A stretch of DNA of 64,000 nt from Sulfobacillus benefaciens (lineage in GTDB: Bacteria; Bacillota; Sulfobacillia; Sulfobacillales; Sulfobacillaceae): contig PXYT01000004.1 of the NCBI GenBank assembly GCA_003023725.1, positions 1 to 64,000 of the forward strand, given 5' to 3'. Positions 31,103 to 33,689 of this stretch are shown one piece after another (the first letter of the stretch is position 1; each line of letters opens with the position of its first letter). A program made the position numbers and the translations under genes. The notes beneath the pieces were generated by a model. The model was given only the letters and a program-made list of their open reading frames with translations, ran no database searches and was not told the DNA's origin.

Positions 31103-31554
31103 TACTCCCATCCTTTCCTGTCCTAACGGCAAACTGTCTGTGCCGTGGTTGCCAAAAGCACCTCGATCTGCTGGCTTCCCCAATATTCGCTCTGATGCGG
31201 CGATCCTCATCTTCCCTTGATGAACCACGAAAATCATCCATACTGAAAACCACCGCAGGCCCCTGAGGATGGATGATCAGATAGCTCTGATATGGGATGA
31301 ATCTTGATTCTGCGCAATTATTCGTTATTTTACCAAATGTTCGTCATAAAGTCTGTGGCCGCCCGGCTTCGGCCCACATCATGCCAAGACCTTGACATCA
31401 CCTGGCAGCATGTTAATGTGAGAGTATCGGGATTCTGCGAATGATGCAGGCTTGATTTGGAGGGATTGCCCCACGCTGTGAGACACAGTTGCCGTTCCCG
31501 ATGTTGTTATTCGGTCAGGGGTAATCCAGTGAAACAAGGAGGTGATATCATTCC
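31103..31554. other. Intergenic region upstream of the TGA-containing disulfide oxidoreductase
   Basis: About 450 nt separating divergent genes. A short inverted repeat GTGGCCG/CGGCCCAC sits at 31355-31377. No coding sequence is supported. It ends in a strong AAGGAGGTGAT ribosome site for the gene at 31555. Confidence 0.4.
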
Positions 31555-32205
31555 ATGGCATATTTGGACGAGAAGATTCGCGGGCAAGTCAGCCAATTTT
31601 TTCAGGATCTAAAGGACCCCGTGACCATTCAGATTTTTCCGGGCCCGAACAGTGAACTATCTCAGGTGTTTATCGAGTTGTCCAACGAAGTGGCTGATCT
31701 GTCGGATCTTGTCATGGTGACACAAACTACGGAAGTGCCACCTTTGGAACCTGGTCATTCGGGCGACGAAAATATTTCCGGGCCTATTGCGATGTTGTTG
31801 GATAACAGTGGTCATCCAACCGGAATCCGGTTTGTTGGTATTCCCAGCGGTCATGAATTTGGTGCCTTTCTAGAAGACATTAAGGCTGTTTCCACTCACC
31901 ATGTAGGACTCAGCGAAGAAGGCCAGCAAGCGCTGTCGCAGATTCAACAGCCTGTTCACATTCAGGTGTTTACCACCCCTACGTGACCATACTGTCCCCG
32001 GGCGGTACGCCTGGCACATGAAATGGCACTGCATTCTCCGCATATTGTGGCGGATATGGTTGACGCCAGTGAATTCCCGGATCTGGCGGGAAAGTATAAT
32101 GTTTATGGCGTCCCCAAGTCAGTCGTCAATGGCAAACTGGATGTGACGGGAGCAGTTCCGGAAAACCAGTTGTTGAAGGTTGTTTTGGATTCGATCGCGT
32201 CATAG
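31555..32205 (+). CDS. Protein disulfide oxidoreductase (two thioredoxin folds) with in-frame TGA, probable selenoprotein UPYC
   Basis: Read through one TGA (31984-31986), this frame gives 216 residues from ATG 31555 (AAGGAGGTGAT upstream) to TAG. The N-terminal thioredoxin-like half lacks a CxxC (IQIFPGPNSELSQ). The C-terminal half reads VHIQVFTTPT-[TGA]-PYCPRAVRLAHEM. The TGA falls exactly at the first Cys of the CPYC motif, and the fold continues through the cis-Pro loop YNVYGVPKSVVNG. Two-domain PDO proteins normally have Cys there. Sec144/Cys147 is the natural reading. A hairpin 11 nt after the TGA (31998-32014, 3-nt loop starting with G) could be the bacterial SECIS. A premature stop is less likely because the next gene has the same feature. 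Confidence 0.8.
31998..32014 (+). promoter_or_regulatory. Candidate bacterial SECIS hairpin
   Basis: CCGGGCG (31998-32004) pairs with CGCCTGG (32008-32014) including one G-U, around loop GTA. An outer TGT/ACA stem (31993-31995 and 32016-32018) extends it. The loop lies 19-21 nt after the TGA and starts with G, in line with published rules for bacterial SECIS elements as I recall them. Being inside a coding sequence, chance pairing is possible. Confidence 0.5.
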
Positions 32206-32233: not shown

Positions 32234-32269
32234 CGAGCAAGGCCACGAATGTGCCTTGCTCGCGTTTTT
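32234..32269. terminator. Bidirectional Rho-independent terminator between convergent redox genes
   Basis: CGAGCAAGG (32234-32242) pairs with CCTTGCTCG (32254-32262); an inner CAC/GTG extends the stem. TTTTT follows on the plus strand (32265-32269) and TTTT on the minus strand, so it can end both the oxidoreductase and the glutaredoxin transcripts. Confidence 0.85.
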
Positions 32270-32504
32270 ATTCTCGAACGCCCAACGTTCTGGCCAATTT
32301 CGGCCGATTAAATCCAACAATAACGGTTCCATTGACAATTATCACCGGCACGCCGGTTTGTCCGGACTTGCGCTGCAGTTCCTGAGCCCCTTGGGAATTT
32401 TTGCTCACGTCGACCTCTTTAAAGGGCACCTTGCGTTCCTGAAGGAACCGCTTTGCACTCCGGCAATGAGGTCACGTGGGTGTCGTATAGACGAGAACTG
32501 CCAT
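32268..32504 (-). CDS. Glutaredoxin-like protein with in-frame TGA, probable selenoprotein UPHC
   Basis: Read through one TGA (minus 32474-32472), the frame gives 78 residues from ATG 32504 (GGGGTGG 5 nt upstream) to TAA. It reads MAVLVYTTPT-[TGA]-PHCRSAKRFLQE, then the cis-Pro loop QTGVPVIIVNG and VIVGFNRPKLARTLG, the standard one-domain glutaredoxin-family fold (YruB/NrdH-like). The TGA occupies the first active-site Cys, giving Sec11/Cys14. No other lesion is present. A GTTCC-TTCA-GGAAC hairpin begins 23 nt after the TGA; its loop lacks the early G usual in bacterial SECIS. It would reduce disulfides, peroxides or glutathione-like mixed disulfides. It faces the disulfide oxidoreductase gene. 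Confidence 0.8.
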
Positions 32505-32654
32505 AAAGCCACCCCCATTTTCGCATAAATACCTGGCACATTATACCCCGATAGGTATGTGACCATCAAGACGGGTGCTCCCTTCCATTGCGTCTCATGC
32601 ACACTTTGTGCATCACTTGTATACCGTGATTAGGACCGAGCGGAGGTGACAGTG

Positions 32655-33689
32655 ATGACGGAAGAGAGCATCCCCTTGTTGGCAGAGTCTTATACCGCGT
32701 ACGGAAAACAGTCCTTTACCCGCAATTGGGTCCGCACAATGCGTCAATCGGTAGTCATTAACGGCGATAACAGCACCGTCTCCGCCATTTGTCACGGATT
32801 GCTGAAAGCCCTGGATTCCCACGTCACCTGGACCCTCTCACGAGCCTTTAATCCCGGGTTACTTTCAGGAATTATATTGCCCAACGAAAAAATTGCGATT
32901 ATTGGTCATTCAGGACGCCTGAGTCCCTGGACCCAACACACCGTTAGCCATACTCTTATCATTCCCGAAAACCACCAAGCACAGTTGGACGGGCAGGACC
33001 CGCAAGTGCCGCATAGCGTCTATCGCCACCTTTTCATTGCCAAAGAATATTTGCAAGATTTGGAGAATCTTTGGACGGGCGTTCATTCTCTGACTGGGCG
33101 GATTGAAGCCCTGGAGCACGATCTCATTCGGTCATTGAGTCAGTCTGCGCCACCTTTCTCGTCTTCTTCCGTCGAAACGTACCACGCCTTTCGTTCTTCC
33201 CTCACTTCCCGTGGTCCCTTTTCATTTGCACACAACGACGGGGCACGAAACATTAAACGGACTCTCATCGCAAGCCCGCTCGGATCCGGTGTTCCTGCCA
33301 TGCTAAAACGACTCGGCCAGAAAGCCAGGCAAATGGGATACCGTGTCTTGTTGCTGCATTGCGGACTCGACCCCTCCCACATTGACCACGTATATTTTCC
33401 CGATGTATCTTGGCTTGTGAGTCACAACATTGCGCCTCACAGCACAGTTCCAGCCCCCTATGACAAGGTCATTGACCTCACCGACGGCTTTGGCGCCGAT
33501 TTAAAAAACCTTTCGTTAAAAATCGAAAAGTTCTCCTACCTGTATGCTCAGGCTTATAATCACGCATGGGAAGATTTCTCTCGGGTGCCTGGTTCGTGCT
33601 GCCTTAGAAACTACTCCTCTGATGCCGGGTTCTGGATTCAAGAGATTTTATCCTTGGCTCCGCTACAGTCCTTCACCCATAACCGTTAA
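32655..33689 (+). CDS. Degenerate tandem P-loop protein related to PRK06851-type ATPases
   Basis: 344 residues from ATG 32655, GGAGG 8 nt upstream. The second half contains TLIASPLGSGVPAMLKRLG followed by GYRVLLLHCGLDPSHIDHV, PDVSWLVSHNIAPHS. That sequence resembles the conserved core of PRK06851-family nucleotide-binding proteins, which carry two P-loop domains, each with a His-Cys-x-x-Asp stretch and an ending near PH. The first half repeats the layout (QSVVINGDNSTVSAICHGLL ... LLSGIILPNEKIAII). In both copies the GxxxxGK[ST] Lys is missing, so ATP binding in the usual way is doubtful. Assignment is from memory of the family pattern and is moderate. Function unknown. Confidence 0.5.
   Translation: MTEESIPLLAESYTAYGKQSFTRNWVRTMRQSVVINGDNSTVSAICHGLLKALDSHVTWTLSRAFNPGLLSGIILPNEKIAIIGHSGRLSPWTQHTVSHTLIIPENHQAQLDGQDPQVPHSVYRHLFIAKEYLQDLENLWTGVHSLTGRIEALEHDLIRSLSQSAPPFSSSSVETYHAFRSSLTSRGPFSFAHNDGARNIKRTLIASPLGSGVPAMLKRLGQKARQMGYRVLLLHCGLDPSHIDHVYFPDVSWLVSHNIAPHSTVPAPYDKVIDLTDGFGADLKNLSLKIEKFSYLYAQAYNHAWEDFSRVPGSCCLRNYSSDAGFWIQEILSLAPLQSFTHNR

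Follow-up and report, generated by a model that had tools for sequence, protein, structure and literature searches.

The N-terminal domain of AhpF consists of two thioredoxin folds, and only the second of them carries an active CxxC. A selenoprotein family named "homolog of AhpF N-terminal domain" in the selenoprotein literature (UxxC, ABB15282.1) was listed as a UxxC selenoprotein already in a 2006 survey (PMC1794560), and reviews list the same family (PMC9312934, PMC13188914), with thermophilic hosts among those in the literature. The family of 2006 is equated here with TIGR02187 on the strength of these reviews, where its domain is given as TIGR02187. Selenoproteins of the TIGR02187 type were reported in Carboxydothermus hydrogenoformans and Symbiobacterium thermophilum. 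For Sulfobacillus, earlier reports describe a putative selenocysteine (Sec)-containing formate dehydrogenase and, in S. thermotolerans, a peroxiredoxin with Sec (PMC4378227, PMC7409299). In the open-access literature, no paper naming a selenoprotein of the protein disulfide oxidoreductase (PDO) type in Sulfobacillus was found. No biochemical study of the Sec form of the TIGR02187 family was found in the literature either; the family is a predicted one.

In the window (the whole analysed stretch of Sulfobacillus benefaciens DNA, 64 kb), a gene of this family, hereafter seleno-PDO, is located on the forward strand at 31555..32205. Its frame starts with ATG at 31555, ends with TAG at 32203–32205 and encodes 216 aa; a Shine-Dalgarno sequence, AGGAGGTGAT, graded strong, lies 5' of the ATG on the same strand (31538..31547). 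The frame contains a single internal TGA (31984..31986, forward strand, codon 144), read as selenocysteine. This TGA occupies the first Cys position of the CPYC motif and is followed by 72 sense codons, which confirms the description given in the earlier note. The deduced protein matched the NCBIfam model TIGR02187.2 (PDO_seleno_TRX) with 206.7 bits at a cutoff of 185, over residues 6–211 and profile positions 2–207 of 209. Its stretch TTPT-U-PYCP aligns with CPYC of the relatives.

The above-cutoff match, the UxxC in the C-terminal thioredoxin fold, and the interchange of Sec and Cys are common to seleno-PDO and TIGR02187. The locus differs in its host lineage (Sulfobacillus relatives) and in the tight linkage to a seleno-glutaredoxin; moreover, a single genome contains four members or relatives of the family that carry a TGA. 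The earlier note had suggested that Sec was undescribed in two-domain PDO proteins; the name of TIGR02187.2 and the listing since 2006 contradict this. The family itself is therefore not new, and the gene is a further, well-supported example of it.

Solved structures in the PDB that are related to seleno-PDO include protein disulfide oxidoreductases as well as the N-terminal domain of AhpF. Tandem thioredoxin folds, the TPTxPYCP motif, and the length range are shared with the Pyrococcus-type two-domain PDO (1a8l, 1j08) and with the glutaredoxin-like proteins 2ayt and 2ywm, all of which have Cys where seleno-PDO has TGA. Furthermore, the N-terminal fold of 1a8l and of Thermococcus-type relatives contains a second CxxC that seleno-PDO lacks: the sequence PGPNSELS is found where the Thermococcus and Tepidibacillus relatives have CQYC and CDYC. 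Judging from this alignment, the CxxC of the N-terminal half has been lost, and the protein represents an AhpF-NTD-like form with one active site. A classical PDO with two active sites is ruled out by the lack of CxxC in the N-terminal fold. Sequence similarity to the AhpF N-terminal domain (1zyn) extends over most of the length; however, seleno-PDO is a free-standing protein with Sec and without flavoprotein fusion.

The open run after the TGA proves little alone, because 7.6% of the TGA triplets that occur in the window also precede a 72-codon open run. Matches to seleno-PDO were present in 49 of the 61 genomes searched (its own and those of relatives), and most of the best matches contained one internal TGA. 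A scan of GTDB genomes yielded 61 loci, the nearest belonging to Bacillota MAGs (84–89% identity) and Sulfobacillus thermotolerans Kr1 (80%). At 94 loci, a tally that includes duplicate records and three paralogues from the same genome, the codon-144 column held only TGA (53), TGC (28), or TGT (13), and neither a different stop nor a different amino acid occurred; the Cys to be looked for at this site in homologues was thus found at 41 loci. The deduplicated set comprised 38 TGA genes and 41 Cys genes. Values of dN were far below dS both 5' and 3' of the TGA, and in the relatives compared the 3' part was more conserved (lower dN) than the 5' part. Downstream of the TGA, comparison with an 88%-identical relative (L022) gave a dS of 0.69 and a dN of 0.023. 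In those parts of the window that have relatives, only scattered matches to other conserved in-frame TGA codons were detected besides the PDO gene and a neighbouring glutaredoxin-like gene; we read them as frames opposite or overlapping genes.

A SECIS-type hairpin, CCGGGC-GGUAC-GCCUGG (31998..32014, forward strand), begins 11 nt after the UGA, and its loop lies 17 nt after it. The published bSECIS model (PMC13188914) assumes a stem of 4–16 bp, a loop of 3–9 nt with G in the first two loop positions, a distance of 16–37 nt from the UGA, and an MFE at or below −7.5 kcal/mol. With a stem of 6 bp (7 bp with a smaller loop), the loop GGUAC, and the distance of 17 nt, the hairpin lies within these limits; our own fold of the 47-nt stretch holding it gave −15.4 kcal/mol. 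Taken from the window sequence alone, its stability was not exceptional compared with shuffles (z = −1.2), and RNAalifold found no consensus fold on the full divergent TGA set, so that pair counting was used and the support for the hairpin rests on comparative counts. All six pairs were formed in 33 of the 38 TGA genes (five lacked the full set in this register) vs. none of the 41 Cys genes. Among 22 distinct sequences, 90.2% of cells paired vs. 84.0% in shuffles, none of 500 shuffles being as high, and in a slid register at most 48.5% of cells paired. Compensatory two-sided changes occurred at two pairs of the hairpin; the fourth, for example, changed from G-C to C-G and to U-A. Synonymous sites in the stem were frozen: in the TGA genes, the identical-codon fraction was 0.69–0.89 at stem codons 148, 149, 152, and 153 vs. 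a background of 0.40, and the loop codons 150 and 151 varied freely (0.23 and 0.32). The same stretch of the Cys genes had no excess (0.32 vs. a background of 0.45). The stretch is under amino acid constraint as well, yet the related Cys proteins lack the hairpin.

The source genome encodes SelA (482 bits), SelB (358 bits), and SelD (358 bits), together with a tRNA-Sec (68.9 bits, 96 nt, anticodon UCA, discriminator G73); the genes whose presence the earlier note had left to a genome search were all found. The reading frame of the SelD gene (L116, contig C84, 19770 onward) likewise contains a TGA, close to the N-terminus (SKSG-U-GCK); SelD is therefore probably a selenoprotein itself. The machinery in the genome, the interchange of Cys and Sec, and the covarying SECIS-like hairpin make the selenoprotein reading of the earlier note well supported. 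Comparative sequence data strongly support Sec insertion at codon 144; the in-frame TGA is real and almost certainly makes selenocysteine the catalytic residue of this thioredoxin-fold enzyme.

Other explanations of the TGA were weighed against this reading. TGA terminates 12 of the 32 long ORFs of the window, so the genetic code is not reassigned, in agreement with the earlier note. The assembly is a draft of 155 contigs, and nothing further speaks for a sequencing error or a recent inactivating mutation that would make the gene a pseudogene. Purifying selection persists 3' of the TGA, and separately assembled genomes share the TGA at this codon, namely the seven others of the genus without exception and the majority of the family; this conservation rules the explanation out, and its probability is practically nil. 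A UGA that mainly terminates, with a 143-residue N-terminal fragment as the relevant product and only minor read-through, would agree with UGA being a working stop in this organism and with the competition between Sec insertion and termination in general. Such a fragment would be without any CxxC, and the part of the gene 3' of the TGA is the more conserved one, which makes this version extremely unlikely.

Reading of the UGA as cysteine by an opal-suppressor tRNA, e.g., a selC* tRNA-Cys with UCA anticodon, would fit the Cys found at the codon-144 site of homologues, and a review (PMC7609411) describes selC*-type tRNAs from several phyla, Firmicutes among them. However, the sole tRNA-Sec-like gene over the cutoff has G73, whereas selC* tRNA-Cys has U73, and the genome contains SelA, SelB, and SelD. 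Moreover, the hairpin occurs in TGA genes only, as expected for SelB-guided insertion, and many other genes end in TGA. We consider cysteine insertion very improbable.

A second gene with a TGA at the same kind of site lies about 60 bp past the stop of seleno-PDO, in convergent orientation (32268..32504, reverse strand); the earlier note recognised seleno-PDO and missed this neighbour. It encodes a glutaredoxin-like protein of 78 aa (MAVLVYTTPT-U-PHC..., Uxx-star/YruB-like). Its in-frame TGA (32472..32474, reverse strand, codon 11) corresponds to the first Cys of CPHC, in the TTPT-U-P-x-C site also seen in seleno-PDO. In linked relatives, the TGA column contained TGA (22) or TGC/TGT (5) and no other codon, and dN downstream of the TGA was low. 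The protein scored best with GlrX_YruB TIGR02196 (87.9 bits, 0.65 below the cutoff of 88.55) and passed the cutoff of Uxx_star NF041212 (68.4 bits, cutoff 66). Set against the Uxx-star, YruB, and glutaredoxin selenoproteins of these models, it keeps the second Cys (UPHC) and is thus a UxxC glutaredoxin. The PDO and glutaredoxin sites of linked loci were combined as TGA/TGA, TGA/Cys, and Cys/Cys; since TGA/Cys occurs, the two sites can differ in one genome. S. thermotolerans Kr1 is among the strains that possess both the PDO and the glutaredoxin-like gene. Folding of 14 sequences revealed no common hairpin as SECIS of the glutaredoxin-like gene, and a short hairpin was present in some relatives only.

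Between the two convergent genes, there is a strong inverted repeat (32234..32263) whose tails are T-rich on either strand. On each strand, one of 200 shuffles folded equally well. The repeat was absent from the listing of a consensus scan; it is probably a shared bidirectional terminator. A 347-aa ORF in the same part of the window (32646–33689, forward strand) had no Pfam match and only weak similarity to PRK06851 hypothetical proteins. Elsewhere in the same genome, three distant PDO-like paralogues (L112, L113, and L114; contigs C1, C65, and C68) have TGA at the catalytic Cys, in the sites VTPT-U-PHC, VSPT-U-TRC, and TTPS-U-PKC.

According to our interpretation, seleno-PDO is very probably a Sec-containing protein disulfide oxidoreductase of the TIGR02187 family, in which UGA 144 is read as Sec via tRNA-Sec and SelB. 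The ribosome would decode this UGA under the guidance of the hairpin just downstream, and the predicted product would have two thioredoxin folds with the active site (UPYC) in the C-terminal one only. From knowledge of the family, we infer its redox chemistry: the Sec selenolate would most likely attack substrate disulfides, and the partner Cys147 would resolve the selenenylsulfide. The presumed electron donor is a flavoprotein of the thioredoxin reductase type, which would re-reduce the Sec/Cys pair, and disulfides are the presumed substrates. A thioredoxin reductase above the cutoff is present in the source genome. Relatives of Sulfobacillus might even possess a dedicated selenium-based dithiol relay, in which the linked seleno-PDO and seleno-glutaredoxin are partners and the Sec-type PDO paralogues share out tasks, although we regard this as rather unlikely.

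Ordinary ORF calling truncates at least two linked redox genes here at the catalytic residue. The linked seleno-glutaredoxin and the three more TGA-bearing relatives in the genome add modest interest. Together with the Cys versions that occur naturally in relatives, the pair of seleno-PDO and seleno-glutaredoxin is a handy set for testing the contribution of Sec. By this gene, a known selenoprotein family now extends to bioleaching bacteria of the Sulfobacillus type.
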